From a virus, in IMG/VR virus record IMGVR_UViG_3300045996_000592, positions 1-64,000 of that record: a DNA stretch of 64,000 nucleotides; one strand, written 5' to 3'. Under the pieces are notes generated by a model, which saw only the letters and a program-made list of their open reading frames with translations, made no database searches and was not told the origin of the DNA. Shown in pieces: positions 40,107 through 62,100 of the stretch (position 1 is its first letter; each line of letters opens with the position of its first letter). A program made the translations under genes and the position numbers.

Positions 40107-40433
40107 ATGACACTAAACCACAAACCTAACCACTACGAAAACACTACCTGCCTTAAAACAGGAAAAACCGGGTTCCCTTCTCAAAGGGTGGCCATGGAAC
40201 AGATCCAAAAATTCAAGGCGTTCAACCGGATGAAGATCAACGGAAGACGTATAAAACACAGAGTCGGTAAACCAGAACAAACCCGCGCCTATCAGTGCCC
40301 ATCTTGTAGCCAATGGCACTTGACCAGTATGAAGGAGTCTGAGTACAAGAACAACCTTGACCCGCTGGGAAAACCAGTGAGGATCAGGATCAACCACGTT
40401 AACGAGTTTAAAAAATATTTATCGGCAGCATGA
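40107..40433 (+). CDS. Zinc-ribbon protein, 108 aa (ends SAA)
   Basis: A CxxC...WH unit (YQCPSCSQWHLTS, ~62-74) with an upstream Cys gives a small zinc site, a type common in phage proteins. Rest is basic. May bind DNA or RNA. Ends Ser-Ala-Ala and overlaps the kinase gene by 4 bases. Confidence 0.7.
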   Translation: MTLNHKPNHYENTTCLKTGKTGFPSQRVAMEQIQKFKAFNRMKINGRRIKHRVGKPEQTRAYQCPSCSQWHLTSMKESEYKNNLDPLGKPVRIRINHVNEFKKYLSAA

Positions 40434-41344
40434 GTAAAAATATCTTAGCCCTATTTGGGGCAGCAGAGTCGGGTAAAGACACAGCCGCTAAGATCATACA
40501 ATATCTTACCGGAGTCAAATATTGGGAACAAAAGACTGAAAGAATTATCGACAACCCGATACCTTACGGGTTAGACGGATATGAGGACTGGGTCGCACTC
40601 AGTCCTTACCAGATAAAGAGGTTCGCCGGTAAAATTAAGGAGATAGCGTCCCTTATTACCGGTGTTCCTGTTTCCCAGTTCGAAGACCAGGAGTTCAAGA
40701 AGTCCTACTTACCGGATAACTGGGACAGGTGGAAAATACAGTTTACCGGGGAACACGGTAATGCTCAGTTTGGACCTAATTACTCATCAAAAGAAGAGGC
40801 TATAGAAACTGAAAAAAATGCCAGAGTTAGTTACGCGTGGCCTAAAAGTTTAAAAACCGTTATTAGAAAAGAACATATGACCTTCCGAGACCTACTTGAA
40901 GAGATTGGCGCCAAGATGAGGGAGGTACACCCTATGTTCTGGATAAACTCCCTGTTTGCAGACTATAAAGGTCATACGGAACGCTACCATAATCTTGAAA
41001 AGGATGGGTTATCTGAGATGTATCACCATCATTCTTGTGCTGAGTGTAGTCGATCCTTTAATGGGTGGAAGAGACAGTACAGATGTCGGGAGTGTATAGA
41101 AAAGAACCCAGTTGTCTACCCCTTATGGTTGATAGCCGACGGACGCCTACCCGAAGAAGCTCAGGTTGTAAAAGAACGTGGGGGCCTTGTTATCAAGATA
41201 GTCCGCGAGACAGATAACCCAGTTTACGAGTCAGAGAGAAAACTGGATCAGGTGGAAGCTGACTACGTGATCTCGAACAATAAGAACAAGGAAGACCTGG
41301 TGAAGAAGTTAAGACTTATTCTCATCAAAGAAGGCATACTATGA
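40430..41344 (+). CDS. dNMP kinase-like protein with zinc-ribbon insertion
   Basis: P-loop GAAESGKDTA (~10-19), then a helical NMP-binding region (YQIKRFAGKIKEIASLITG and FRDLLEEIGAKMREV), as in T4-type deoxynucleoside monophosphate kinase. The late part EADYVISNNKNKEDLVKKL is the usual C-terminus. Between ~200 and ~225 lies a four-Cys module (CAEC...CREC) that the T4 enzyme lacks; it probably replaces the LID or adds a structural zinc. 304 residues. It phosphorylates dNMPs for DNA synthesis. Confidence 0.8.
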   Translation: MSKNILALFGAAESGKDTAAKIIQYLTGVKYWEQKTERIIDNPIPYGLDGYEDWVALSPYQIKRFAGKIKEIASLITGVPVSQFEDQEFKKSYLPDNWDRWKIQFTGEHGNAQFGPNYSSKEEAIETEKNARVSYAWPKSLKTVIRKEHMTFRDLLEEIGAKMREVHPMFWINSLFADYKGHTERYHNLEKDGLSEMYHHHSCAECSRSFNGWKRQYRCRECIEKNPVVYPLWLIADGRLPEEAQVVKERGGLVIKIVRETDNPVYESERKLDQVEADYVISNNKNKEDLVKKLRLILIKEGIL

Positions 41345-42850: not shown

Positions 42851-43035
42851 CAGAAGAAGTAGACTACAACCAGATGGCCTGTCCTGAGTTATCAGAACTG
42901 ATCGACTACCAAATAGATAACCCAGTTGATGGGCGTAAGAAGAAAGAGTATAGAAAGTACCTGGAGAACTTACAGAAGATGATAGACAGTTATAATTTAA
43001 AAACCGGATTCCAGGCCTATCAAAAAGTTTTATGA
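42847..43035 (+). CDS. Small helical protein, 62 aa
   Basis: ATGA overlap. Charged helix (DGRKKKEYRKYLENLQKMID). Overlaps the following small gene by 4 bases. Unknown. Confidence 0.6.
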   Translation: MTEEVDYNQMACPELSELIDYQIDNPVDGRKKKEYRKYLENLQKMIDSYNLKTGFQAYQKVL

Positions 43036-43208
43036 CATTAGAACAGACCCAGACAGATCAGAAGCCAATAAAGGTATTCATGTACCCCGGAGTAGAGGAG
43101 CTCAAGAAGATGACCCCTACCCAGCTCACAGAGACCAAAATAAAAGTAGACCAGTTATCTGACTACTTGGGATACCTCATCAGACAAAAAATATATGATA
43201 TTTTATGA
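43032..43208 (+). CDS. Small protein, 58 aa
   Basis: ATGA overlaps at both ends; such coupling is the evidence for this short gene. Helix KMTPTQLTETKIKVDQL. Unknown. Confidence 0.55.
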   Translation: MTLEQTQTDQKPIKVFMYPGVEELKKMTPTQLTETKIKVDQLSDYLGYLIRQKIYDIL

Positions 43209-43540
43209 ACAGACCGCTAATTTATATAGCTGGTAAAATCAGTGATCTACCACCCGGGGTAGCTGAGAAAAACTTCCACGACGCCCAGGTTAGACTGGAA
43301 AATCAGGGGTGGGATACCCTTAACCCTTACGCCCGGATAGAAGGGTGGAAGAAGCAGAACGAGGACTACAAAGAAATAATGAGGTTAGTTCTTCAAGACC
43401 TCGCATCCTGTAAACATGCCTACTTCCTGAGGGGGTGGGAAAGAAGTTTAGGAGCGACGTTTGAGCACTTCGTTTGTCAGAAGACCGGGATAAAGATAAT
43501 TTATGAAGAACAACCTAAGGAGGAGACCGTAGAGATATGA
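43205..43540 (+). CDS. DUF4406 protein, nucleoside 2-deoxyribosyltransferase-like
   Basis: Opens with LIYIAGKISDLPPG, then GWDTLNPYA and HAYFLRGWERSLGATFEH (~80-97), the pattern of the DUF4406/nucleoside 2-deoxyribosyltransferase-like Rossmann fold that recognises nucleotides. 111 residues. It starts an ATGA-linked run with the PRPP-synthetase-like gene and may take part in nucleotide or NAD metabolism. Confidence 0.85.
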   Translation: MNRPLIYIAGKISDLPPGVAEKNFHDAQVRLENQGWDTLNPYARIEGWKKQNEDYKEIMRLVLQDLASCKHAYFLRGWERSLGATFEHFVCQKTGIKIIYEEQPKEETVEI

Positions 43541-44370
43541 TACTAAATTTAAGCAACCCACCGGCCTCAATAATCAAGGCTAAGATCGGTAAATACCCTG
43601 ATGGTCAGCAGTATGTTATTATCGACCCACAATTTACTGTAGGGGAGAACGGAATAACGATATACTCCCGGTTCAACTCCTTCCTGGATTTAGAACTAAT
43701 AGTGACTGCCACTAAAGCGCTACAAAACCTTGATGTAAAGAAAATAAATCTATACGTTCCCTACATACTCGGTGCCCGGTCTGACCGGAAGTTTGAGTAT
43801 GGTGGAACGTCCTATCTGGTGCAGATTATAGCGCCTATCCTGAACAGTTTGGGCCTCACCAAAGTTTACTGCTTGGACGTACACAACCAGGCAGTAGCAG
43901 AGGCGTGTATTAATAACCTCGTTTGTTATGATAACTCAGAGTTTATCAAACGAGTACTGGGTGACATACAATCCAAAAACCTTGTTATTGTTACCCCGGA
44001 CGACGGCGCGTCCAAAAAGATATACCCGCTCTGTAAAAAACTCGGTTTAGAAGTACCCGTCGTCGTGTGTGCCAAACACAGGGATATTAAAACCGGTAAG
44101 ATAGAAGGGGTAGATATCCCTCACGGGACACACTTCAAAAATGAAGAGGTAATGTTAATAGATGATATCTGTGATGGCGGCAGGACGTTCATCGAAATAG
44201 CCAAGAAGTTAAAAACTTGGGGAGAACCTGCTAAAATGTACCTGGCTGTCACTCACGGAATATTTTCCGCGGGGTTTGATGAACTACACCAGTACTTTGA
44301 CCAGATATTTTCTACTAACTCCGTGAAAGATCACCCAAATATATCTGTAACTCAATATCCAGTAATATGA
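43537..44370 (+). CDS. Ribose-phosphate pyrophosphokinase-like (candidate Adps of NARP1)
   Basis: Phosphoribosyltransferase fold: LYVPYILGARSDRKFEYGG (~68-86) corresponds to the ATP-binding PRPP-synthetase loop, VYCLDVHNQ (~108-116) to the D/H active strand, then VTPDDGASKKIYPL (~150-163) and the PRPP loop MLIDDICDGGRTF (~207-219). It makes PRPP, or, as known for phage NARP1, a related pyrophosphate from ADP-ribose. 277 residues, shorter than host Prs (~315). Lies two genes before a NAMPT-like gene. Confidence 0.85.
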   Translation: MILNLSNPPASIIKAKIGKYPDGQQYVIIDPQFTVGENGITIYSRFNSFLDLELIVTATKALQNLDVKKINLYVPYILGARSDRKFEYGGTSYLVQIIAPILNSLGLTKVYCLDVHNQAVAEACINNLVCYDNSEFIKRVLGDIQSKNLVIVTPDDGASKKIYPLCKKLGLEVPVVVCAKHRDIKTGKIEGVDIPHGTHFKNEEVMLIDDICDGGRTFIEIAKKLKTWGEPAKMYLAVTHGIFSAGFDELHQYFDQIFSTNSVKDHPNISVTQYPVI

Positions 44371-44795
44371 TAGATAAATATATAAACAGGTTAACCGAAG
44401 AGTGGTTACAACACGGTAAGATAATAGTAGCCATAGACTTTGATGACACAATATCTCCTTGGAAGCTGAACAGTCAGGAAGAGTGCAATAAAGTAATTGA
44501 GGTTCTTAAAGATGTGTGTGCTGTCGGAGCCTATATAGTAATATTTACAGCCTGCAGTAGTGACCGTTATCAGCACATCGCAGAATACTGTACTTCTAAA
44601 GGGTTTAGTATAGATAGAATAAACCAGAACCCCATAGTCTTACCATACGGTAACCAGACTAAGGTGTACGCGAACATATTCCTCGATGACCGCGGAGGTC
44701 TGGACGAAGCACTCAATATCTTACAAGAGAGCATGTACCGGGTACGTTCATCCAAGTATGGTAAGAACCTCTCGGAACAAACAGTAGAATTTTAA
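44367..44795 (+). CDS. HAD-family hydrolase
   Basis: Motif I IDFDDTISPW (~22-31), motif II FTACSS (~57-62) and motif IV FLDDRGG (~108-114) show a HAD phosphatase; the Lys motif (K near YCTSKGF, ~76) is present. 142 residues, so no large cap. The substrate may be a phosphate intermediate of the neighbouring PRPP/NAD genes. Overlaps the gene before by 4 bases. Confidence 0.8.
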   Translation: MIDKYINRLTEEWLQHGKIIVAIDFDDTISPWKLNSQEECNKVIEVLKDVCAVGAYIVIFTACSSDRYQHIAEYCTSKGFSIDRINQNPIVLPYGNQTKVYANIFLDDRGGLDEALNILQESMYRVRSSKYGKNLSEQTVEF

Positions 44796-44807
44796 AAACA
44801 GATACTC

Positions 44808-46361
44808 ATGTTTAAACCAAACGCTTTATACTACGTAGATGGGTATAAGATCGCTCATAAAAAGATGCTGGCAGCAGGTACCACCCGTCTATACGGAACC
44901 TGGATACCAAGGTCAGTAAAATATGCTCCTAAAGGAGTAAATAAGATAGTATCATTCGGTCAGCAGTTAATGGTACGCTGGCTGCACGATGAGTTCACGG
45001 AGAACTTTTTCAACCTTCCGGTAGATGTAGCTCACCGATTCGGTAAAGATATGTGCCTATACCTTGGGATGGACTACGACTACACGCACTTCACAGAACT
45101 GCATAATCTCGGTTATCTCCCAATCCGCATCAAATCATTACCAGAAGGAGTAGAAACTGATCCGAATATCCCACATATGACCTTCATTAATACTGTAGAC
45201 GGGTTTGGATGGCTTACTCTGTTCCTTGAAACTATCATTAGCGCCCTGGCGTGGAAGGCCCCGACTGCAGCCACTATTCAGAAACTCTATAACCGTAACA
45301 CTATGGAGTGGGTCACTAAAACCGATCCGGATAATTTATGGTTAGTACCGTTCCTTAACCATGATTTCAGCGCCCGCGGCCTTGATCCATTCTCGATGAT
45401 GGCAGTTGGTCTAGGCCATGCTACAAGTTCTTTGGGCTCAGATACACTCATAACCATCCCGGCTGCCCGTTATTATTATGACGAGCCCGAAGAGGAGGTC
45501 TGTGTGTTCTCTGTTAACGCCTCGGAACACTCAGTATCTACAACCAAAATATTTACAGTAGGGGAGCAGCAGATGATAGCAGACTGGTTACAGGATTTCC
45601 CGAAGGGAATACTATCTATTGTATCTGACACTTTCGACCTGTGGAAACTGATAACCGAGTACTTACCGGCCAATAAGGGATCCATTATGTCGAGGGAGGG
45701 TAAACTAGTCATACGTCCTGACAGTGGTGATCCGGTAGATATTATCTGCGGTTGTAAGGTTACTCAATCTGATGAAGATGAATTACTATATCGTGACCAG
45801 GATACATGGGAATCCTACCCGCCAGAAGAAGACATAGTTATTGTGAAACATAAGGTTGGTGCCAAGCCGGTATCTGAAGCGGAAAGCAAAGGGGTTATAG
45901 AAATCCTTTGGGATATATTCGGCGGTACTGTGAACACACACGGTTATAAAGTACTTGATCCTCATATTGGCGCCATCTATGGTGACTCGATAACTCCGGA
46001 CCGTCAGGTAGAAATCTATAAACGGTTAGCGGCTAAAAGGTTTGCTACTACCAACATCGTCTTGGGTATAGGGTCCTACACTTACCAGATGGTAACTCGT
46101 GATACACTAGGGTTTGCTGCTAAAGGCGCCTGGTTTGAGGCCAATGGTACGGGTTACGATATCTACAAGGATCCGGTGACAGATGATGGAACCAAAAAGT
46201 CACTAAAGGGGCTCATTAAAGTAAATCCCAACTTCACTGTTTGTACCCAATGTTCCCCGGAAGAGGAGTCAACCGGTTTACTCCAAACCATATATGAGAA
46301 CGGGCAGTATTATAACAAGACCACTTTAAAAGACGTCCGTAACAGACTTAAGAACATATGA
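44808..46361 (+). CDS. Nicotinamide phosphoribosyltransferase-like (candidate Namat/NAMPT)
   Basis: 517 residues. The start MFKPNALYYVDGYKIAHKKM and conserved parts DGFGWLTLFLETII, LGHATSSLGSDT, FSVNASEHSVST and PDSGDPVDIICG (~304-315) are those of NAMPT/NadV. It couples nicotinamide to a pyrophosphate-activated ribose (PRPP, giving NMN) or, in the phage NARP1 pathway, to ADPR-PP giving NAD+ directly. With the Prs-like gene upstream, the second is plausible. It would restore NAD+ after host defences deplete it. Confidence 0.9.
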   Translation: MFKPNALYYVDGYKIAHKKMLAAGTTRLYGTWIPRSVKYAPKGVNKIVSFGQQLMVRWLHDEFTENFFNLPVDVAHRFGKDMCLYLGMDYDYTHFTELHNLGYLPIRIKSLPEGVETDPNIPHMTFINTVDGFGWLTLFLETIISALAWKAPTAATIQKLYNRNTMEWVTKTDPDNLWLVPFLNHDFSARGLDPFSMMAVGLGHATSSLGSDTLITIPAARYYYDEPEEEVCVFSVNASEHSVSTTKIFTVGEQQMIADWLQDFPKGILSIVSDTFDLWKLITEYLPANKGSIMSREGKLVIRPDSGDPVDIICGCKVTQSDEDELLYRDQDTWESYPPEEDIVIVKHKVGAKPVSEAESKGVIEILWDIFGGTVNTHGYKVLDPHIGAIYGDSITPDRQVEIYKRLAAKRFATTNIVLGIGSYTYQMVTRDTLGFAAKGAWFEANGTGYDIYKDPVTDDGTKKSLKGLIKVNPNFTVCTQCSPEEESTGLLQTIYENGQYYNKTTLKDVRNRLKNI

Positions 46362-47314: not shown

Positions 47315-47547
47315 CAGAACAAGACATAATAGAATTCATAGAGTCCGGTCAGCCGGATATGGCTATCCTCGGGTACTTCCTGATGGACGTAGAAGATAAA
47401 TCCCCAGAAGCAGCCTACAACTACATAAAACCCATTTACGAAAAAGAGTTATCCCTGGCATTTACCAGGGATATTTTTATGGAGTACTTCAACAACCTCG
47501 TTGCCCGGGGCGCCATCTCAGAGGGACCGGATATTTCCGGTAATTAG
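47311..47547 (+). CDS. Hypothetical protein, 78 aa; last plus-strand gene
   Basis: ATGA overlap. Acidic, helical (EDKSPEAAYNYIKPIYEK). Within it, CCCTGG (47453-47458) and CCAGGG (47465-47470) form a hairpin followed by ATATTTTTA that may terminate the plus-strand transcript. Its stop overlaps the converging virion gene by 4 bases. Confidence 0.6.
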   Translation: MTEQDIIEFIESGQPDMAILGYFLMDVEDKSPEAAYNYIKPIYEKELSLAFTRDIFMEYFNNLVARGAISEGPDISGN

Positions 47548-50500
47548 AAGATGTGGAACTTGGTCTCCGTATCCAGGTTCAACCAGTCGTTATAGTTATG
47601 GATAAGGGGTAGCACATCCCGCCACTCCTTACTCATCTTACTCTGGTCTTTATAGGCGCCCTTCTGATAGATAGCGTCTTCTTCTGATTGGAACGGATAC
47701 TCTACTGTAGACATGATAGCTTCCGAGAAGTTCTTCAGGGTATTACTGATAGCTACCGGGTTCTTTACATACTCGTACATCTGTTTAACACCCAATACCG
47801 GATTAAAAGTAATAACTTCGGTACGTAACCTGTCCGTCTGGAATGACAGGAAGTGTACCAGTCTCTTGATACGATATTCATCATCAGGGATACCTTTAGC
47901 TAAATTACTGATCAGGGAATAAATGCCGAGTAAGGATATGATAAGTAGTATCTCCGAAAGATCCTGCATCAGGTTTTTCTTCTGTATGTCACTCATACTA
48001 CCCCACGCAGAAGTAACCCTTGACCAGTAACCGTCAAAATCACGGAGGGCTGAGAAGAACTTCACCGCTGTAACATATCTACCTTCGTACTCTCCCAGTG
48101 TCGCATGATCGTAACCACCGATAAACCGGGCGCGGAGAGCGGGGTAGATGTGTTTATGGAACTGTAATAACAGCTGTCCTACTGTATACTGCTGGAGCAT
48201 TACCCGGTCTTCCCAGGCATAGTTACCGTGGATGTGTTTATTTACCTCTTTGATATAGTTGGTGGCATTGAATTTCTCATCAGAAGACAGCTCAAACCCG
48301 TCTTTCAGTTTCAGCTCTCCGGTGTTCGGATTAAACTCGTAGGCATCATAGATAGACACCGACTCACCGGTCTTTTTATTCTTAATTTGGCGGGACATCA
48401 GTACCGCTAACCCTACCTTGCCTTGTACGTTATATTCACCGATCTCCTGACCAAGGTAAACCTTATCCATGAAGCTGACCCTACCCTGGTCCTCCTGCCA
48501 CTTGGTTATCATGTGGAAGCTGTCTATCAGGGCCTCTGCCTTACTGCCAGGTTTCCTGTTAGCGTAAGGGCCTTCTTTAGAGGAACCCAGTTTTTTAGCA
48601 AACCCGGGTAACAGTTCCGCGTTAAAGACTCCTTCCGCCCGGAAATAACTCTTACGGGAGAAGTACTTGTTAGCAGCCATCTCCAGCAGGTTATTCAACC
48701 TACCCATCGTGTAGTTGTTCAGGTTACCCTTGATGTTCAGGCCCACACCACGAAGAGACGTGATATTCTGTATCCTCTTAGCGATAATCTCCATCTGGGA
48801 GTGGGTCATAGTCTTATCGTTATAGAAGACCATGCTCAGGTAGGCGTTCAGGCGCTTTACCGTGTTCGGTAACTTGGTGTTCTTGTTCTTGGGGTCGTAG
48901 ATATAGGCCGGCTCGTCAGAACCTGCCTTGGTGATCACCTTCCCGGTAGCTGTTTTCTGGTAGTACTTACGGTTGATTACTGCGTCCTTGAGCGCCATGA
49001 TCTCCCCCTCTACTGCGGAAAGGTGAAGGAAGTTCTCGGCCATATCGGAGAACGCCAACATCTGTTTGAAGACATCCGTCTCCAGCTCAGAGTTCAGGGG
49101 TTTGGTGTTCTCCAGTCTTAGCTGCTCATTCAACTTCTTCCTCTCAGCCCTATATTCTTTCTGGCTGATCTTACCCTGTGCCTTCTGTTCGGCCAGCTCT
49201 TGTATTTTCTTCTGAAGGTTTTCCACCTTTTTCTGATTACGGAGATCCCCCATGTAGAGTTTGGGGATGACCTGCCGGGCGTTACCGGCCTCATCCGTAA
49301 CACGGGTAGAGCTAAAAGTCGTCGGGGTAAAGGAGTTGGTTATCCCACGTTTTACTACTGTCCACAGACCCTCGTTACGGGCTTGCTGTGTGAAGTTGGA
49401 CTGAAGGGTCATAAGACTTCCCTTTTTCAACCAGCGCTGCGCCGAAGGACCCATCCGGTTCGTATAACCCCCAATGATATCCATGTAGGCATTATATATC
49501 TCCTTCTGGAGTTTTCCGAGTTCTGAGGTCTGCCCCTGCAGGTCAACGTAACGCTTGTTACGCATGTCCTTACCCTTGGCTGAAAACTCCCTGATCTCGA
49601 TATGATCACGGTTCGGGAACCACCCGGTACGACGGGTAACAATACCAATTGGTTCTTTGGTTGTCCAGTCTTTGGCCATTTCCCAGTACTCCACGTATTC
49701 CTGGTATTTACGACGGAAAGAAGTATGTTCTGCCTCCGTGACATCAGGACGTTTTATCCATCTGCCGTTAATAAATTCTTCTACTTTACCTCTGGCGTCC
49801 TTGTATTCCTGTGTGTACTTATGATACTCGCCATCTTCGTAGGTCTCCCCGTTAGTGGACTCGGCTTCAGTGAATTTACGGACACGTTCCTTGATCTTGT
49901 ATAACTTACGGTTGTACTCAAGGTCTTTTGGATCAGCTGTGTGGATATCTGTTATCTGGATATATTCCATCAGTTTACCGTCATCGGTCCTTAACGCTGA
50001 ATACACCTCATCCCGGAGTTTCCAGTAATCCTGGGATATTTTCTGGAGCAGCCTAGTAGGGTTACCCTTGGCATCCAGCTCATACATGAAGTTAAAAGAG
50101 TCCTTATTCAGTTTACCTGCGAGTTTGGCGTAACGGTTACCTAACTGTTTGATACGTTCCTGTACGCCTTCCCGGGCCTCCTTACTGGTGAACATGGCCT
50201 TCTTGACACGGGTGTCGATAATACCCAGGAGTTTATCACGGGAACCGGCCAGGTCAGACGCCACATACTCGTGGAACTCTATGTCCTGGGCAGCCTCCAT
50301 CAGGTCTTCTATCTCCTTAGGGGTAAGATCAGGGTTTTGGTCTGATATCTTCTTGGTGACATACGTCCACGACTGCCGGGTGATATCATCGTTCAGGTTC
50401 TCCAGTGAGTCCAGCAGGTCTTCCAGCATCTTCTTCTGGTCATCGGTAACAAGGCCCCGGATCTTGGCAATACCCAGGTAGGAATCATTGAACTTGGCCA

Positions 50501-52025
50501 CCTCATCCAATATATGGTAATACTCCGGGCGGTCGTAGTTCTTCGGGTTATTTATAAACGCTGATATAATATTGGTCTCTTCCTGCGCGTAACGAATAAA
50601 CCTGCCATAAGCTGCTAACAGCCCACCCTTTTGTGTACGGAGCTCCGCTATGTCTGAGAGTAGTTCGTGTATCTTACTGATGGTCTCCTTACGTGGTATC
50701 AGGTTAGCCGAGTCTTCTGCCAGTGACTTGAAATAACCCAGACGGTCCTTGAAAATCTTCTCGATGTCATCCAGTGTGACAGAGAGTTTTTCTACCTGTG
50801 ACGCTGGTAACTCCGGCTCATCTGCTGTTACCTGTTCTTCCGAGAAAAACGTGCGGCTCTGGTAGTTATTATCCTTACCCCCGGTTGGTTCTTCAGATAT
50901 CACTTTGTTGATAAATTCTTCGTTAGCGCTGATCTCATGGATAATAACACCTTCTGTACCGAAGTCCTGTACCAGCTGCTCTACTTCTTCCCCCATTTTC
51001 AAGAGGATGTGGTAAGTCTCCGGCTCTTCAACATCAAGGTATCCCTGTAGCTGTATCAGTTTTGTGTAAACACCTACCTGTATACCTTGCTTCTGTACAC
51101 GATTAAGAACGCCACCGATACGGGAACCTTCCTTCACAGGATAAGCTGTGAACGCCTGGTTACTCTTTACCGAGTTCTTGGATGTCTTAAGGTCAATGAC
51201 CTTTATCCTCCCTTCAGGGCTGATCTTCACTATATCCATACTGCCGGCCACCCCTGATTTAGGATCACCAAGGGCTACCTGTGTCAAAAGTACAGAACCA
51301 TCCTTGGTCAGGTCTTCTACCAGCGCGGTAAAAAAGTCGTAGAACTTCTTACGTAAGGGCTCATTAAGAGCGGGGACGTCTGGTATCTCTTCCCCTTTTA
51401 TCACCGCCTGCAGGATACGGTCTATTGCGGTACCTATCTGGCGGGTGTGTTCGTACTGGGGTAATTGCTCCCCCTTACCTTCGATAGCCGTCGTAACCGA
51501 GGTGTATTCATTACCTTCAGAGTCAAAATAGACATGGCTCTCCGGTTCGAGGAATACAGGGTTCTTTGGGTTCAGTACCAGGTCATCTATGATCTGCTGC
51601 TGGACATGATTAGCCTGGCTCTGCTGGTATTTAGTATCTGCCTTCTTCTCTTCAGACAGGATCTCTGATACATTCTTTGGTAGTAGTTCCTTAGAGAGGA
51701 TAATATTCCGGAAGATATTAAACCGGGGTTCCCCGTTCTCATCCAACGTCATTTGTTTACGAAAGTCATTAAAGGAACTGAACTGCTCTTCCCACTCAGG
51801 GGTATAGGCCATAGACCACAGCCCTACAGCTATCTCGGGATCTGTCTTTCCCTTTATCGAACCATCCGACAGACGTTCCTGTAAGTACGGAACCTGTTCT
51901 ATGATGTCATCCAGCTTCTGGTTCTTCAGGAACTCAAGGAAATCACTATAGAGTATAGACGGTTGTTGGTTAGGCGCCAGTACTTTTTCTATCTTATTAT
52001 CTTTACGGTGGAGTTGACAGGTCAC
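47544..52025 (-). CDS. Large virion-associated protein with PD-(D/E)XK nuclease domain
   Basis: 1493 residues. An N-terminal helical part is followed by a RecB/Cas4-like nuclease domain at ~165-285: YTSVTTAIEGKGEQ, GTAIDRILQAVI, SMDIVKISPEG (Asp ~262) and KVIDLKTSK (Asp/Lys ~278-280). The middle ~440-1150 is mainly coiled coil and helical, with KLNEQLRLE type segments. One transmembrane helix lies near the C-terminus (~1355-1375, ILLIISLLGIYSLISNLA). In crAss-like phages the large proteins beside the RNA polymerase are carried in the capsid and injected; the nuclease could act on host DNA at entry. Overlaps its upstream gene by 4 bases. Confidence 0.75.
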   Translation of the reverse strand: MTCQLHRKDNKIEKVLAPNQQPSILYSDFLEFLKNQKLDDIIEQVPYLQERLSDGSIKGKTDPEIAVGLWSMAYTPEWEEQFSSFNDFRKQMTLDENGEPRFNIFRNIILSKELLPKNVSEILSEEKKADTKYQQSQANHVQQQIIDDLVLNPKNPVFLEPESHVYFDSEGNEYTSVTTAIEGKGEQLPQYEHTRQIGTAIDRILQAVIKGEEIPDVPALNEPLRKKFYDFFTALVEDLTKDGSVLLTQVALGDPKSGVAGSMDIVKISPEGRIKVIDLKTSKNSVKSNQAFTAYPVKEGSRIGGVLNRVQKQGIQVGVYTKLIQLQGYLDVEEPETYHILLKMGEEVEQLVQDFGTEGVIIHEISANEEFINKVISEEPTGGKDNNYQSRTFFSEEQVTADEPELPASQVEKLSVTLDDIEKIFKDRLGYFKSLAEDSANLIPRKETISKIHELLSDIAELRTQKGGLLAAYGRFIRYAQEETNIISAFINNPKNYDRPEYYHILDEVAKFNDSYLGIAKIRGLVTDDQKKMLEDLLDSLENLNDDITRQSWTYVTKKISDQNPDLTPKEIEDLMEAAQDIEFHEYVASDLAGSRDKLLGIIDTRVKKAMFTSKEAREGVQERIKQLGNRYAKLAGKLNKDSFNFMYELDAKGNPTRLLQKISQDYWKLRDEVYSALRTDDGKLMEYIQITDIHTADPKDLEYNRKLYKIKERVRKFTEAESTNGETYEDGEYHKYTQEYKDARGKVEEFINGRWIKRPDVTEAEHTSFRRKYQEYVEYWEMAKDWTTKEPIGIVTRRTGWFPNRDHIEIREFSAKGKDMRNKRYVDLQGQTSELGKLQKEIYNAYMDIIGGYTNRMGPSAQRWLKKGSLMTLQSNFTQQARNEGLWTVVKRGITNSFTPTTFSSTRVTDEAGNARQVIPKLYMGDLRNQKKVENLQKKIQELAEQKAQGKISQKEYRAERKKLNEQLRLENTKPLNSELETDVFKQMLAFSDMAENFLHLSAVEGEIMALKDAVINRKYYQKTATGKVITKAGSDEPAYIYDPKNKNTKLPNTVKRLNAYLSMVFYNDKTMTHSQMEIIAKRIQNITSLRGVGLNIKGNLNNYTMGRLNNLLEMAANKYFSRKSYFRAEGVFNAELLPGFAKKLGSSKEGPYANRKPGSKAEALIDSFHMITKWQEDQGRVSFMDKVYLGQEIGEYNVQGKVGLAVLMSRQIKNKKTGESVSIYDAYEFNPNTGELKLKDGFELSSDEKFNATNYIKEVNKHIHGNYAWEDRVMLQQYTVGQLLLQFHKHIYPALRARFIGGYDHATLGEYEGRYVTAVKFFSALRDFDGYWSRVTSAWGSMSDIQKKNLMQDLSEILLIISLLGIYSLISNLAKGIPDDEYRIKRLVHFLSFQTDRLRTEVITFNPVLGVKQMYEYVKNPVAISNTLKNFSEAIMSTVEYPFQSEEDAIYQKGAYKDQSKMSKEWRDVLPLIHNYNDWLNLDTETKFHIF

Positions 52026-53176
52026 GCGCAGGTGTTATTTAAAGGGTTATTAGTAGTAAATGTGAAGGTTGGTGAATCTTCTGACTGATAGTAAAGAGTA
52101 CCCGGACGAGCTTCATCAGGTGTGGTCGTACCTTCTTCTGTTAGTGTCTTGATCCTATCAATGACCCTTGCAGCTAACCTATCCGGTTTACTCTTAAAGA
52201 CATCAACCAGAAACTTCATGAGCTTTCCCAGGAACGTCCGGGAAGAAGTAGGTTTCCTGTCTTTAGTGCCGGCGCGTAACTCGTTCTCGGTGAACGTCCC
52301 GAATATGTCCTGCTGGATCATCATTCGGATATACTCATCCACTATAGTCTCAGGGTTGTCGTTATGACTTCTGTAAATACTTTTGATATAACGGATCTCA
52401 TCACGGCTGAGTTCTTTATAGATCTGGTCCATCTCCTCACTGGTAACAAGAGATAAAGCAGCCAGGTGGATAAGCTCTTCACTCAGTATGATCTCAACCC
52501 CCTTGATAAAATCTTCAGCAGACTCAAACCGGTACAAGGACGGCATAAAAATCTGATGGATATTAATAAAGAGGTTCCTCTCGGTTACGTAAACACCCGG
52601 TTTATTATGAGCATTCTCTATTCTAATATAGTTCCTACCAACCATCCCTCTCTGTTCGAGAGCTGCTGCCAGTCTTCCCACGAAGTTATCCCCCTGCTCT
52701 GTAAGCCGGGAAGCAATAAAACATCCGATAGCGAACCGAGACTCAAACTGGTCACGGTCAGGGGAGTTGTAAAGTTCCTCAAGTGTTCTTCCCAGAACTT
52801 CTTCGAGACGGGAACTATCCGGTGAACCGCTAAATCGTTCAGTAATAGCCTGGTTCCTCTCCCGCTCGTCTTCGGGGAGGGCAATTCGTGTATTACCAGA
52901 AGTTCCGGAAAGGAGTAGAAACTTAGAATCTTTTGATAGTTCCGAGAGCACTCCTCCTGCTGTTCTGTTATAAGTTTGTCGAGTTCGTTCATCTACTTCG
53001 AAGTTAATGTTTTTAATCTTACCTGAGTCAGAGAAGTCTGAGGCCAATTTACCTTGGCGATAACGAGAAGGATCAGGTATATCCCCCTTTATCAGGAACT
53101 CCCGGTACGCCTCAGTGAGGCCAATCTTATTTACTAACTCAGACCACCACGGGTTTGACACGTTAGGACACTTCAT
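52022..53176 (-). CDS. crAss-like virion module protein, 384 aa
   Basis: The start MKCPNVSNPWWSELVNKIG and GLTEAYREFLIKGDIP matches an N-terminal module that I associate with crAss-like large-protein loci. Residues ~228-240 read IILSEELIHLAALSL; EELIH is close to, but not, the zinc motif HExxH, so a metallopeptidase is possible but not supported. C-terminal part basic, then Thr-rich end. Lies between the RNA polymerase and nuclease proteins. Probably a virion protein. Confidence 0.65.
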   Translation of the reverse strand: MKCPNVSNPWWSELVNKIGLTEAYREFLIKGDIPDPSRYRQGKLASDFSDSGKIKNINFEVDERTRQTYNRTAGGVLSELSKDSKFLLLSGTSGNTRIALPEDERERNQAITERFSGSPDSSRLEEVLGRTLEELYNSPDRDQFESRFAIGCFIASRLTEQGDNFVGRLAAALEQRGMVGRNYIRIENAHNKPGVYVTERNLFINIHQIFMPSLYRFESAEDFIKGVEIILSEELIHLAALSLVTSEEMDQIYKELSRDEIRYIKSIYRSHNDNPETIVDEYIRMMIQQDIFGTFTENELRAGTKDRKPTSSRTFLGKLMKFLVDVFKSKPDRLAARVIDRIKTLTEEGTTTPDEARPGTLYYQSEDSPTFTFTTNNPLNNTCA

Positions 53177-53190
53177 TATACGATAGGGGT

Positions 53191-56100
53191 TTATTTAGTT
53201 AGTCCGCAAGCCCTTAACCCGTCCTGTACTTCTTTATCAGACGGGACAGCCGGTTGGTTACCTAAGTTACCTTTTTTATTAAAATATTCCAAGACCTCGG
53301 ATGGTAACATCGGTTTTCCCATGAGATCTGAATGGGCCGGATCTACCTGGATGTTTTTACCATCCCTCATGTAGAACCATCCTATTCCGAAGGTGTAGGT
53401 ACTTACGACATCATAATTATTCTTGAGTTCGGATACCGGGTTTTGCTGAGAACTATATTCAGCTGCCTCCAGTTCATACATTTTGGAGTCACCGAGGAAA
53501 GAAGGGCTATCCAGCTCACCAATGTTATTATCAACCCCACGTTTTATCAATAGCTGGGAAGTTGTAGGAAGTTCACCGAACATCCGGCCAAGACGCCACT
53601 GTTTGTTACTCCCTTCCGGCTCAAACCTTTTGTAGACCGCCCTGACACCACGAGCCATAACCTCACCGAGCTGGATAAAAGAGTGTGGGTCACTCAACCC
53701 CTCGTTCTCCTTACCTTCAAGGGATTCGAGGATATAATACTCATGACGACTAAAGGGTCCACCACCTGCCTTCATTTTGAAGACATAGGGAAACAGTACT
53801 TCTGTCTTACCGCGTTCTATCATCTGGAATTCAGGATTATCCTCAACAACCCTAGCCTCGGTACGGTAGAACCCGAACCCTCTAGCTTCGATCATCTGTT
53901 TATTCCTGACCAGCATATGGTTCTCTTCAGAACTGAACTTTGAAGGACTGTACTTCTTACGGATACCACCGAACAGATCTATTGTTATGGTATTTCCGGT
54001 ACCACCCTCACCTTCGACCTTGAACGACTCGGCAGCTGTATATTCATCTACAACCTTAATACCGGTAGCTGTAAACTTAGGTGTGCCGTTCTTACGGAAC
54101 ATAATGTCAAAACTCGAACCTGAGTTCGTCATATAGTAGGTCATAAACTCATTGAAGAGCTCCGCCTGCCCGATACCAAACACATTTTCATAATCTTCGT
54201 CGGACCTACGGGTCTTCATCAGGTCATTAGCCAACCCTGTAGCACTCAACAGGTCACGGAACATAAAGGTTGGGATGAACTTTATAAAGCTGCCGGAACG
54301 GTACATACCACCGTCTTTTACTAATAAGTAGTGGAACAGGGCTGTAGCTACTTCTCTGCCGGAGAACTTATTACCGTTCTTGTCGGTAAACTTCTCCCTG
54401 GTTTGGTAGAGGTCCGTAAAGCTGTCCTGTAATTTGTTTACCTGATACTCGGATAGTTTGGCCCAGGTGTTCGTATCCAGTTTCGTGATCCCGTCCCTGT
54501 TGATCCTGGACGGGACAATCTCCCCGGTCACCGTGGTTTCACTGGTCGGGATAAGATGTAAGAAGTTATTTACAAGATAGTTACTCTTCTTTCCTGTCAA
54601 CCCGGACCTCACCATGTTCACAATGTCTGCTATATGGTTGTAGCCTGTGTCAGCCGTATCATATATAAGACGGTTATCCAGGCTGTTCAACGCGGAGATC
54701 CGACCTTTATCCTTCAGCATCTGTTGATAGGCCTTGATACCAAGGTAGGAAACAAGGTTATCCCTGAGGGTAGACTCAAAGCGCTCCTTGTTGAATCTGT
54801 CCGGCTCACTCAGGTTAGCCTTCACGATACCCTTGATGCGGTTAAACACGTCGGTCTTCTCAAGGAACATACTCTTCTCGAGTTCTTCCAGCTGGCCTAG
54901 TATCTGTATGTAGGCACTCATGAACAGATGATGAGGCAACTCCGGGTCTCTGCCAGTCAATACCTGCCTGAGGTCAAACGGTACAGGGGCCTTAGAGAAC
55001 TCTTCGTTAGTCATCATTAACCCGAGCTCTGTTATATTATCTTTTATCTTATCAACATCTTCGAATGATGTACCCAGCCCTTTAGTAAGTTTCAGTACCT
55101 GCGCCACCTTATTATAGTAGATCGTCTGTTTAACGACACCTTCGAATGTCTTCAGAGCAGCATACTCAGATAACTCGGAGGGGCTTTTCAGGTTCTCTAT
55201 CAGGAGATCATCCGTAATATTCGGTATATCTTCTTCAGGCACCTCACTAAACCGGGACCTGAGTTCCGTGAACACGGCCTCCGCCTTCACCTTCTTCTCA
55301 TCTGAACGGGTCACCGCTGATTTATTCAGCAGCGTCTTGGCAAAATACTCCTGTACTATGGGTTGGCGTATTAACAACAGCGCGGTTTTTAGGGGAACAC
55401 CCTGGGCGATCATGTTCGCCACATAACCGGTGGCACTGATATTCAACCCCAGCAGGGCGGCCAGGCGTTCCTTGGCGTTATCTGTCATTACTGATACAAG
55501 GTCAGATATCTGTTTGTTGATACGCTCCCCGTCAAACATACCGGTCTCAGGGTTGTAGGAGTGATAATTCGTGTAACCGGCACCTATTACCCGGTCACCC
55601 ATCCGGAACTTGAAGAACGGCACTTCCGCACCCTGATCGTTAATATAAGAGTCACGGATTTCCACCCCATAAGTACTCAGCAGGGAGTAGGTAAGCATGG
55701 CGTTTACAGCCGGACCGATGTTAGTGGCCCCTTCCTTGTTATTCTTGAAGGCATAATACTTACCCAGAAGTGAGTTGACATCCGAGGTAGCCTCTGTAAA
55801 GTACTTCTCGGCCGGCGTACCTTTGAATATCTCCTGGAACTCTTTCAGTATATCCTTGAAGCTGTCGATACCTGCCGTCTGGAATGCGATCGGTTTATTT
55901 CCCGTTACCATGTGACTGTTACCCAACAGGGCTATCTTCTGCTGTAATATCCTGTTATTCAGTACACCGTTATTGAGTTCCTTGTTAAGGGTAGCCTCCC
56001 TGTATTCTTCAGAAGAATCAGGAAGACCCATCTCCCTTAGCGCCTGAGCCTCTAACATCACATTAAGGTCGTGTACTAATTCGTTAGCCTCAGTAACTTC

Positions 56101-59100
56101 TTCTGATAATTCTACCTGTGCCTGCTTAAGATCACGTGCAGACCACTTGAATAAAGAGTCGTACTTACCGTCATCATTGGTTATCCATTTAAGATCTTCC
56201 AGTTGGGTACGTAATTCAGACTTTTTGTCAAGAAGAGACCTGAGATTTTCCTGCGCCTCCTTGTAGTGAGGGTCTGTTTTTTTAAGGATGTTGATAATAT
56301 CAGAGTATCTTCTGTTATTCTTCTTCAGCCATACTTTATACTCGTCGAACTTCTCCTGTGGAGTAACAGCTGACCCGAACGGTTGTAGCTTACCACCCTT
56401 CTTATAGAAGACCTCGGGCCAGTGGATATATAGCTTATCTATATCGAAGTCAGCTCCGGATATCTCAATCAGTTCATGTGGGAATACCGCGGACGAACCG
56501 TAGTACTCAGGTATGAAGTCCACCAGCTTCAGGTTAACGAAGGAGTGTTTATCCTGTGACGGGATACGCACACCAAACATCTTGGTCAGGAACTCCGGTA
56601 TCTTCTCCTCAGGTAAGAGTTTCAATAGGTCTTCATACATCGGCGGCATCATGAACTCGGTATAATATCCTGTGATATTACCCCGCTCGTCATACTCAGT
56701 TACGTTATGTCTCAGGTCATCTATAAAGAAATCCCCCTCCTCAATCGGTTCTTCAAACACCCGGTCGTAAGGATTATTGTACTTCTTGGCAGACTTGTAG
56801 TATTCCGGATTCTTGGACAGGTATTTCTCCTGTTCACTCCTGCGAACGATCCTGCTCCTTAACGGCCGGCCGGAACTATCCCTCTCGGAAGTGAGCGCCT
56901 GGCGTACAACCCTTGTACCGTAATTACTTACCAGCGCCACGGAAGTACCGGGCACCTTCTCACTCATCACCCCTTTCGAGAAATAGGCCAGGAATAACTG
57001 GGTATATTTCTTCAGGGTGATCGGGTTGTTCAGGTTGTATAACGGCTGACCGTCCTTTACCTCAAACAGCTCTATCAGCTGGTTATCTGCACCAGACGCT
57101 TTCAGGGTCTCAACAGCACGTTCCTGGAACGCAGCCAGTTTAGGGGTAACACTACCTGACCGGATAGAAGTACCCAGTTCCGTCATAGCCTGGTCGATAT
57201 CAAAGATGTCGTTCCTGGCCTGGTAGAAGTTGTTACTTACCCTGTTAGATGTATCTGAAAGATACATCTCCCGTATACGCCCCACAGTCCACGGGTTACC
57301 ATCACCATCAGTCTCTACCCCCATGAAGTTAACAAGGGTATCATCTGCCTGCTCAGACATGATGACGTGCTTGGCCTGTGTGGGATCGGTTATCTTTACC
57401 TTGTTAGACGGGTTCTCCAGCTGTAACCTCATATACCGGGCCGGCCTGCTCATAAAGTAACGGGACACATCCCCGTTCTTCAGGTGGGCGGCAGAGTCGG
57501 CAGCGTTCCTCTTTATAGCCTTGGCAGTAGTCAGGTCCCCAACGAACGATATCTGTTCCGGATTCTCTGCTTCCGCCTTATCCATAGCCTCCCTCAGGTC
57601 ATGGAGTTCCTCCATACCCGGGCGGGAGTGCCACCTGCCTTCTTTATCTTTAAATGATGTATACTGCTTGGACAGGAAGAACACCGACATCTTGTCATAA
57701 TCTACCCCGTCATAATACACCAGCTTCTGAGAGTTTAGCATCCTTCCTTCTGCTATTAATCCCGACTTACCGAATATCTCCCGGTCTTGGGGGTTGAGGG
57801 GGGTACCGGCTTCCATCTTGTCAAGCACCTTAGCAAGGGTTGGGGTGAGTTTACCCAAGGCGAACGCAGTATACCGGGCAGCCTTTATAGAACCGTACAT
57901 CTGTCCGTCCGCTATCTTACCGTCTTCTTTACCATACGTAGCCTTGAACTTCTGGCTCTTGATGTGTGCTACCTGGATGCTCACGTTCTTATGGTGGATA
58001 CCCAGTGATGGCGCTGTAAAAATACTTTCGATAGAAGGGCCCGAACCGTTGGCGCCCTTGGCCCTCTTAACAGCGTCCACGGCATCTTTCAGGGAACGGG
58101 ACTCATCCCCCAGTAACAGCTGGTTCATGGCCAGTGTATTCAGGTAGTCGTTCAGGAATATCTGAGCTACATTATGCTCTATATCCCCCTCGATCATATT
58201 CAGACCGTAGTCTTTATCTTCGTTCCCGAAACCCTTCTCGATAAAACCACCTAAAAGGTTATTCTGGTAGGAACCATCTTCGTTCTTCGTTATAATCTTA
58301 CCATCTTGTAGTTCCTGTAAAAACCCGTCAACCTGGCTTCTGAAGTAGGTACGCAGTTGTTTTAATACAGTATTCTTATCTAGCTTATACTCGGGATCGG
58401 CAGCAGATGACTCTATTTCAGCAGCCAGCTCACCGAGGGCAGCCCTCATCTGGTAAAAACGCTCACCGCGACCGGGGACCTTCTGGCCATCCTTCGTCTC
58501 GTAATGATAACCTTCGATATAACCTTCAGGGTATACAGCGGTCTCATTCTGTTCCTTTACCCTGCGGATACGGTCAAACTCCCTTACCACCTCGTTATAC
58601 AAGAGGTTCAGGGTGTCTTCGGTTATTTTCAGCTTACCGTTTACTTTAGATACGGTACGGATAACCGGTAACTTAACAAGATCCCCGGTAGAAGAGGCTT
58701 CCAGTACCCGGATAAGGTGCCGGGCCGTCCAGAATGTTTCATCAGCGATCTTTATCTTTTTGTCAGACTCCAGCCCCTGGTAGAGGTTCATCGTATAGAT
58801 GAGGAACTCCCTGGGGCCGAAACTACCATAAGACACCCCGTCGATCTGGTTGACTTCCAGTAGCTTATTCACTCCGCCATCATCATCTATTTTCTCGACC
58901 TTCAGACCATCCGCCCGCACCACATTAAAACCGCCAGTAGCCTGTACCTTGTGCAGGTTGTCTAGTAAGATATTATTCTTCAGGAACGGGTCCTCTTTCA
59001 GTTTATCTATCTCTGAAGACTCGTTAAAGTCTGTTATCCGGTCAAGGTGGTAGGAGGCGTTCTGGAAATCCCAGACAAGCTCTCCTTCCGCGTTCTTCCA

Positions 59101-62100
59101 CGAGGTACCCTGTACGGTATCGTCGAACAGAGCATTACCGTTGGCCATATTCAGGAACCGGGTATAAGAACCGGAGTCACTTTCCTTCACATAAGGTTTA
59201 CCTACCTGGATAGCTGTAATGATCTCCTGCAGGTCTTCGGTTTTAGCCGGGGTAACTTCGCTGTAGGCCTCGGCTAACTTCTGTTGTGTCACCGTCCTCT
59301 TATCCTCAGGGATCGTAGCAGACACAGAATATCGTATATACTGGACAGACAGTCCTATACCCAGTTCCTGCTTTAACAGGTTGGATATCTCCTGTGCTTC
59401 GTTCGTTAGCTCCAGGTCTGAGACCTCTTTACGGTTCAATAGGGTGATAAGTGCAGATATGGCTTCAGTCTTCTCCAGTAAGAAGTTCTTCCTTTTTTCC
59501 TTTGTCGTAAGGTCGGAGAACGGTATCAGGTACTTGGTCTCAAACGCCTGCGCCCATTGGTCCACCTGCGTCTTACCGCCGTCTTTCCTGTTGGCTGCAA
59601 ATATCCGGGTACGGTTATCTTCCGATGTAGGGTCTATACCCATAAACAGGTACTGGACCCGGTGTTTCTGGAAATCCTTCAACATAGCCTGTACCTGAGA
59701 CGCTACCGTGTCCTGAGTCATTACAGGGGTACCGTCAGCCTCTATAGTCAGGCCGGCGTCAGAGAACAGTTTATTAACGAATTTCCCGGTATCACTGTCT
59801 TCATTCCGTAATATGTTGAGTCTCTGGATAACCTTCTCCTGCGAGGTGATACCGGCCATCTGTTTCAGTAAGCCATTATAAACGCTGTTCACGTTCACTG
59901 ACTGCATGATCGGCTCACCATCATTCTGCCCGGTCTCCTCACTATAGAGCCGGTCGTTACCGAAATCATCCGTATATGGGAACGCGGTAGTGGCTATGTA
60001 CTTACGGGTGACCATAGACAGGGAGCCATAACCGCCTATTGAGTAGGCGTTCTTCTTAAAGTCATCAGCTCCACGGTCACCAAGTTCATCTACTACAGTT
60101 TCATACTCCTCATCCTGCAGGCTCTGGTTATAACCCATGATACGCAGATGTACTTCTACCGCTTCTTTTAACGACTGCCTGTTCTCGGGATCAGTGAATA
60201 CGTTCTGGTAGGATTTTATCTTACCGTAATAATCAGCCAGCTTCCCGAGGTTACCACCAAAGATTGCCTTAGCCTTATCCTTGTACAGGGCCGGGTCGTA
60301 GGTCTTCTTATAAACGTCAAGTAGTTTTTCCAGCTCCTCGTTCGTGTTATACTCGGCCTTCTTACTCACTACCATATGGAAACTACGGGCGAACGCGGCC
60401 GCCAGTTTATCTCCTTCCTCCTGTGTCAGGTAACGCTGAACGGTAACCGTCTGGCCGTCCTCTGTTTTTATCACCTCTTTGTGAGACTTGATAGACTTCA
60501 GTGCCGGTTGGGTGATATGCTCGTGTTCCGGGTTAGTGAACCTGTTAGCGGCCAAGGTAGCGTTCTTATACTTACCACCTTCGATTTCGGAGAACAAACC
60601 TTCGATCTCCCCGCGGGTAAACCGGTCTATAAATTTCTTTATCCACTCCAGCAGACGGGCGAAGAACGACTTGGCGACATGGGAGGTCTCGATAGACTTA
60701 TTCGTCTTCCACTGGTCGAACCTGTCCGCCAGGTATTCCTCCAACGCACGTTCTTCCAGCTCTTTACGGCTCATCCCTTTATACATCGGGTGGAGCCCTT
60801 TGAGTTCTTCTATTCTGCGGTCTAGTCCTTTACCGACTTCCCGGCGGGCTATATCCAGTAACTGGGTTATCTTGTTATCTGGTAACAGCAGGCGGAAGAT
60901 CGCGTGGAACGCCTCGTGGTATTTATAAGGACTGTCTTCTCCTACGAATATCTTACCGCCGGTAACTGCTTTCTTACCGTTCAGGATTTCCAGTGAGCGC
61001 AGGAAATAACCTACAGTCACACTCTTCTCGGCCAGGTTCTTCGTTAGTTCTTTGAGTTCTTCTACGGAAATAAAGTCCGGAAGATTGTCCTTCACCCAGG
61101 AAACGAAACGGTCATAGTTTTCTACAGATAATCCTGTCAGTTCTTCCGGTTGCAGTACTTTTAATACCTCACCCTTGAACCGTGCGGCTACTCTGTCCGC
61201 CTCTTCACGGAACTCGGATACCGCCTGTATGATAGCGTCCTGTTCTTCTATCCCTTTAGCTGTCAGTTCACCTACACGATCATTCATCCACTCTTCCTCA
61301 CGTGCTATAAAACGATCCCAGTCGTTCTCTTCTTCTTCGGCCAGCACCACCCTGGTCCCCTCAGCTACATTTTGGATACGCTCAGGGACTTCCTCAACGA
61401 CCACTGGCTCTTTTTCCTCTTTAATAGGGACATAGTTCTCGACCGTAGGAGTAACTGAGTACACCAGTCCGGCATTCTTAACGATATTTTTACTTACTGA
61501 AGTAGTCAGAAGACTAGCCAGTACATCCGGATCAGTAACGGTAGCCGGGATGTGCTGCAGCATATTATCTGGGGTCAGGGTAAGCTCCAGATTGAATGCA
61601 GGGTTACTCTGCCGTACTTTATCAACAGCCTTCTTTATAGCCTTATTGACCTCTGTGATAAAGTCAATGGAGTCTTTGAACTGTAACCCCGTTTTCCCTG
61701 CGTCCACGTAGATCGCCGGCATCTTCAGGGTTTTATCGGAAGGGTTACTCAGGTGTACCCGCAGGCCACCGTTACTCACCAGCTCCACGTCTATATACCA
61801 TCCCTTGTTCTCAAACGGTACGGACAGGAACAGGGTACTCCCAATTACCTTGTTAACTTCATCCATGAGCGCGGGATCTACTTTCTCCCCATCTTTAAGC
61901 GCTGCCGTTTTCTCAGCCAGTTTAACTGAGTTCTTATTGATCGTGTCCAGCAGGGAATTAACCGCTTCTTCCGGCAACCTATCCGGGTAACACTCCACAT
62001 AAACCACCTTACCCCCGGGGAGCTCAATGGCCATGACATAACGCCCCAGGTTCTTACTCTTGTCATCCAGTTCCGTCAGTTTAGAACGTATAGCCCGGGA

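Follow-up and report, generated by a model that had tools for sequence, protein, structure and literature searches.

The window analysed here, positions 1 to 64,000 of the IMG/VR virus record IMGVR_UViG_3300045996_000592 (134,155 bases), carries a set of four genes that is probably a phage NAD+ reconstitution pathway of the NARP1 type together with a functionally linked phosphatase of the HAD (haloacid dehalogenase) fold; this judgement concerns the cassette, and not any one substrate of the HAD protein. NARP1 is described as a two-enzyme pathway, made up of Adps and Namat, that restores NAD+ which bacteria have destroyed as a defence. In the window, the Adps and Namat genes are on one strand, with the HAD gene alone between them and a gene for a DUF4406 protein ahead of all three. 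The HAD subfamily accompanies NARP1 repeatedly, in many unrelated phages and bacteria. A first-pass annotation had read these four genes as a NARP1-type cassette, and trees of both enzymes bear this out at the level of sequence; the activities are predicted.

The two candidate NARP1 enzymes

The candidate Adps (ADP-ribose pyrophosphate synthetase; 277 aa, window positions 43537-44370, plus strand) is a Prs-like protein that matches the phosphoribosyl pyrophosphate (PRPP) synthetase family phrog_619 (8.6e-64). In a maximum-likelihood tree, ten housekeeping Prs proteins, taken from E. coli and from genomes in which a NARP1-linked HAD operon is present as well, were separated from fifty Adps-type sequences by a split with 100/100 support; the window protein fell on the Adps side, as did the Adps of Mycobacterium phage DyoEdafos, which is biochemically active (PMC13232231). 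The PRPP-binding loop reads DDICDGGRTF in the window protein and in Escherichia phage mistaenkt, and DDICDGGGTF in DyoEdafos Adps, unlike the DD-x-x-DTGGT pattern of Prs (DDMIDTGGTL in E. coli). Judging by its sequence, then, the Prs-like protein is a member of the NARP1 Adps family. The first-pass annotation had tentatively assigned it to Adps and had suggested a phylogeny with proven Adps enzymes as a check; loop and tree position agree on the assignment, and the tree places the protein outside the ordinary Prs group.

The candidate Namat (nicotinamide ADP-ribose transferase; 517 aa, 44808-46361, plus strand) matches the nicotinamide phosphoribosyltransferase (NAMPT) family phrog_448 (7.5e-149). 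Its best solved relatives are 9w5x and 9w5w (352 bits, compared with 165 bits for Xcc Nampt and 135 bits for the human enzyme), and the residue numbering of the aligned 9w5x/9w5w chain fits SpbetaL1 Namat as described in PMC12774641. The Namat catalytic residues are kept, with F187, R190, H241, R303 and D305 invariant in the alignment. The adenine clamp helix of Namat has the form GSX-phi-X-phi-X-phi-TRD, with aromatic residues at positions 3 and 7, and the third residue of the clamp loop is Arg, or else Lys/Tyr followed by a stacking residue, the Lys-Tyr pattern having been described for Bas63 (PMC12774641). The window helix is GSYTYQMVTRD, with Tyr at position 3 and Met at position 7, and the window loop is PRSVKY, with Lys then Tyr as in Bas63; of the 175 loci where the motif could be located, 22 have Met at position 7. 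The greater part of the adenine clamp appears to be present. When four phage NadV references were included in a tree, the window protein fell on the Namat side (100/99) rather than with ordinary NAMPT, consistent with its earlier reading as the nicotinamide transferase of the cassette, and its nearest Namat in the phage collection is that of Leptolyngbya phage Lbo-JY46. The protein is, by these features, a member of the NARP1 Namat family.

A HAD subfamily linked to NARP1

The protein encoded between the two enzymes (142 aa, 44367-44795, plus strand) has no meaningful Pfam match, and matches phrog_1238 at 9.7e-21. Its HAD phosphatase motif set is complete, comprising DxDxT, the Thr of motif II (T61), the Lys of motif III (K99) and the DD of motif IV; D24, D26, N86, K99, L106, D107, D108 and L119 do not vary across 72 HAD sequences, and T28 and T61 hardly do. 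An AlphaFold2 model reached a pLDDT of 94.9 (an earlier fold made without an alignment, with a pLDDT of 51.5, was discarded). The nearest PDB entry, both by profile (1.5e-08) and by fold, is 2obb (BT_0820), and T4 polynucleotide kinase/phosphatase is a weak match. Both the modelled fold and the catalytic residues match those of phosphatases, and phosphatase activity is predicted.

A first survey of annotated phages used the window HAD alone as the query. The HAD gene was found in the order Namat-HAD-Adps in the crAss-like phages DAC15 and cr126_1, Adps-Namat-HAD in Phass-1, HAD-Namat in Tenacibaculum phage PTm1, Adps-HAD-Namat in Vibrio phage VPT02 and Aeromonas phage PhAER-3, and HAD-Adps in Lak phages; weaker matches, among them those in Burkholderia phage FLC6, Porphyromonas phages and Klebsiella phage Eowyn, were not linked to NARP1 genes. 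A profile search of IMG/VR yielded 80 viral HAD loci, 47 of them within 4 kb of Adps or Namat (both genes in 42, one in 5), the same picture of linkage as in the first survey with the window HAD alone. The remaining 33 loci were not linked, and 27 of these form one recent clade; clustering the viral HADs by similarity gave 36 groups, of which 29 were linked to NARP1 genes. In the reverse direction, a HAD was nearby in 17 of 80 Namat loci, in five gene orders. Overall, the HAD gene adjoins NARP1 genes in at least five orders, often directly.

The same association is seen in bacteria, where 44 of 61 HAD loci have the HAD with both partner genes. Three of the 44, all from Mucilaginibacter, combine a Prs-like loop with a NAMPT-like gene that falls on the NadV side, which leaves about 40 of the 61 loci as NARP1-type. 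These loci occur in two phyla, in Paenibacillaceae and in Bacteroidota. A gene for an NrtR-like Nudix regulator lies near 36 of the 44 operons, and genes for Macro, ADP-ribosylglycohydrolase, PnuC, nicotinamidase or NadE are also present in some of the operons. The repeated NrtR-HAD-NARP1 arrangement in both groups suggests that the pathway may serve bacteria as regulated ADP-ribose (ADPR) recycling; the ligand of the regulator is not certain, since an NrtR-family regulator of Bacteroides controls arabinose use (PMC4666351).

HAD genes of this subfamily were also seen in other surroundings. The 735-kb phage LR756501 (L019, 644-9117) has an island of NAD biosynthesis genes around a NARP1-type HAD, in the order PncB, a HAD-like open reading frame (ORF), NadE, an ORF that by eye resembles a TonB receptor, the NARP1-type HAD, PnuC, a NadR-like protein and a PncA-like protein of the isochorismatase family. 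The HAD directly follows an ORF reading by eye as NAD+-dependent DNA ligase (LigA) in L215 (504-2925), and in L218 (1763-4073) it precedes ORFs reading by eye as NadD and NadE, the latter also identified by phmmer. It lies between two radical SAM-like proteins, in the same layout, in a viral contig (L080) and a bacterial genome record (L197), and in L075 (5779-6954) its frame runs on into sequence that by eye resembles an HNH/NUMOD homing endonuclease. Members of the unlinked viral clade include L059, L065, L070, L090, L092 and relatives; an RNA ligase is encoded upstream of the HAD in L059, and similar ORFs are present in L070 and L090.

Proposed pathway and alternatives

We propose that Adps, as its family and loop suggest, would use ATP to convert ADPR released by defence NADases into ADPR-pyrophosphate, and that Namat, by its family and clamp, would join this product to nicotinamide to give NAD+. 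The HAD phosphatase, whose linkage to the two enzymes is observed, may act on a small NAD-related phosphate compound and so help the pathway to work well. As its substrate we tentatively place first, short of even confidence, the 2'-phosphate group on molecules derived from NADP (2'-phospho-ADPR or NADP+), because NADP+ is reportedly cleaved by some defence systems, an Argonaute defence among them (PMC12948488), and because RyDEP, encoded in the same slot in DyoEdafos, feeds ADPR to NARP1 (PMC13232231). A dedicated HAD would, if this is true, allow the phage to salvage the remains of NADP+ after defence as well. A wider and rather doubtful proposal is that the NARP1 pathways of many phages and bacteria consist of three enzymes: a dedicated HAD would make 2'-phospho-ADPR or NADP+ usable by Adps and Namat, such that the loss of both NAD+ and NADP+ is undone, and in bacteria the three would form an operon for ADPR recycling controlled by an NrtR-type regulator. 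A third enzyme that recurs would imply that the chemistry of NARP1, or the range of defence products that it handles, is not fully understood.

An alternative possibility, which we judge unlikely though it is our next choice of substrate, is that the HAD removes AMP formed by Adps as a by-product, pulling the pathway forward. Prs-type enzymes, NadE and ligases all yield AMP; HAD copies adjoin Adps, Prs-like genes, NadE and the one LigA-like ORF recognised by eye and, in the unlinked clade, lie near an RNA ligase. However, AMP is normally recycled by the cell's adenylate kinase, and the PnuC/NadR island has no obvious source of AMP at the HAD itself.

Several observations weigh against reading the cassette as NARP1 with a dedicated HAD partner. 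Most sampled phage NARP1 loci lack a HAD (the Namat scan being the measure), and the HAD is therefore not required for NARP1. The clade of 27 viral HADs occurs in other contexts, and seven of the eight records searched had no Adps or Namat match; in the eighth, L068, both genes are present elsewhere in the record. The seed alignment of the profile was built from linked copies, a mild bias toward linked hits, and no fusions of the HAD with Adps or Namat were found. One aromatic position of the window Namat clamp is Met. Lastly, the HAD accompanies canonical NAMPT-like genes in the three Mucilaginibacter genomes (L241, L242 and L245, which also have a Prs-like gene) and in the viral contig L099, so its substrate need not be derived from ADPR; these contexts count against a strictly ADPR-bound role.

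The absence of the HAD from most phage NARP1 loci and the clade found in other contexts favour a simpler explanation, namely that Adps and Namat suffice, and that the HAD is a general housekeeping nucleotide phosphatase, such as a 5'-nucleotidase, that accompanies nucleotide genes; that the closest solved structure, 2obb, is a functionally unassigned HAD also fits. Nonetheless, we consider this explanation quite unlikely, given that the linkage recurs across so many gene arrangements and across two phyla of bacteria, often by direct adjacency, and that more than three-quarters of the HAD sequence clusters are linked. We give still less credence to the HAD being a metabolite-repair NMN 5'-nucleotidase that clears nicotinamide mononucleotide (NMN) made by Namat. 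Namat does make NMN from PRPP in a side reaction (PMC12774641), and in LR756501 the HAD has PnuC and a NadR-like protein as neighbours, but the HADs of Mucilaginibacter and L099 accompany NAMPT-like genes expected to make NMN, where its destruction would be self-defeating. Ordinary Prs-NAMPT salvage, making PRPP and NMN with a host NMN adenylyltransferase (NMNAT) completing the route, matches the Pfam and PHROG names and the Met in the clamp, but is highly improbable and not supported, given the Adps loop, the clamp features, both trees and the lack of an NMNAT match in the phage record. For NARP1 with a linked HAD phosphatase, there remains a short list of candidate substrates that one phosphatase assay could separate.

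Gene context

The four genes named by the first-pass annotation are all present and contiguous on the plus strand; adjacent genes share 4 bp (ATGA), except that a 12-bp gap separates HAD from Namat. The DUF4406 ORF overlaps the preceding ORF, and genes for a DNA polymerase, a primase-like protein, a helicase, an exonuclease, thymidylate synthase and a deoxynucleotide kinase lie upstream on the same strand. All four seem to belong to a longer same-strand run, rather than to form a four-gene transcript of their own. The strong promoter that had been proposed for them did not hold up: promoter-like sites in the region number 19, compared with 16 +/- 4 in shuffled sequences, and the best nearby site (42969-42996) is inside an upstream ORF. 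We therefore rejected a dedicated strong promoter.

The DUF4406 protein (111 aa, 43205-43540, plus strand) matches Pfam PF14359 (6.6e-15) and the nucleoside 2-deoxyribosyltransferase family phrog_355 (1.5e-17). A DUF4406 gene adjoins HAD-Namat in L038, L040 and L108, and in a single-sequence search 2 of 126 phage loci had one no more than 400 bp from NARP1 genes. Within this same distance, PF15891 proteins, which are broadly of one kind with DUF4406, are encoded in 26 of the 126 phage loci and 6 of 44 bacterial loci; no pairwise similarity was detectable between the window DUF4406 protein and the PF15891 protein at L201:6387-6851. On these grounds, the 2 of 126 loci and the lack of similarity, DUF4406 was rejected as a core NARP1 gene. 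It could at most be a NARP1 accessory, perhaps a glycosidase that feeds in ADPR, by analogy with RyDEP. The earlier suggestion that HAD and DUF4406 provide extra steps thus fares well for the HAD, and for DUF4406 the support is weak.

Two further features of the window are of note. A deoxynucleotide monophosphate kinase (PF21448) is encoded at 40430-41344, about 2 kb upstream of the NARP1 genes; phage deoxynucleotide kinases of this kind help to trigger the NAD-depleting Kongming defence (PMC12774641, PMC12948488). Very long minus-strand ORFs of 1493 and 3597 aa occupy 47544-63984, and the 1493-aa ORF contains a PD-(D/E)XK-like stretch.

Comparison with known systems

As in the NARP1 systems of SpbetaL1, Bas63 and DyoEdafos and the bacterial pfNARP1, Adps and Namat are encoded close together in the window; they share the Adps loop, the catalytic residues of Namat and the larger part of the clamp, and trees group the proteins. 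The window differs by the HAD gene between the two, the DUF4406 gene in front, and the change of one clamp aromatic to Met. A HAD partner of NARP1 is apparently undescribed within the two papers covered: the words HAD, hydrolase and phosphatase are absent from PMC12774641, and in PMC13232231 DUF4406 is absent and "had" occurs as a word just twice. The founding 2024 paper is outside this scope, and an earlier notice is possible.

NARP2, which combines NAMPT and NMNAT, likewise uses a NAMPT-fold enzyme to restore NAD+. By contrast, the NAMPT-like protein of the window stands apart from the phage NadV references, and no match to NMNAT (PF01467) was found in the 134-kb record, which may be incomplete, by a search that was positive in 14 of 14 controls. 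We rejected NARP2 because no match to an NMN adenylyltransferase was found in that record.

BT0820-type HAD phosphatases (2obb) have a compact HAD fold and the catalytic set in common with the window HAD, which differs by an N-terminal helix and an LDDRAGL-type ending and scores far under the NCBIfam cut-off (27.6 versus 165 bits); 2obb itself was deposited as a conserved protein without an assigned function.

A precedent for the position of the HAD gene is the RyDEP-NARP1 locus of DyoEdafos. A search of the window's own record for RyDEP, made without a positive control, gave no match, and no Macro domain was found in that record. The accessory gene of DyoEdafos occupies the same slot between Adps and Namat as the window HAD gene: RyDEP is an RyR-domain glycosidase that acts on cyclic ADPR signals and supplies ADPR to NARP1 (PMC13232231), whereas the slot in the window holds a HAD-fold protein.
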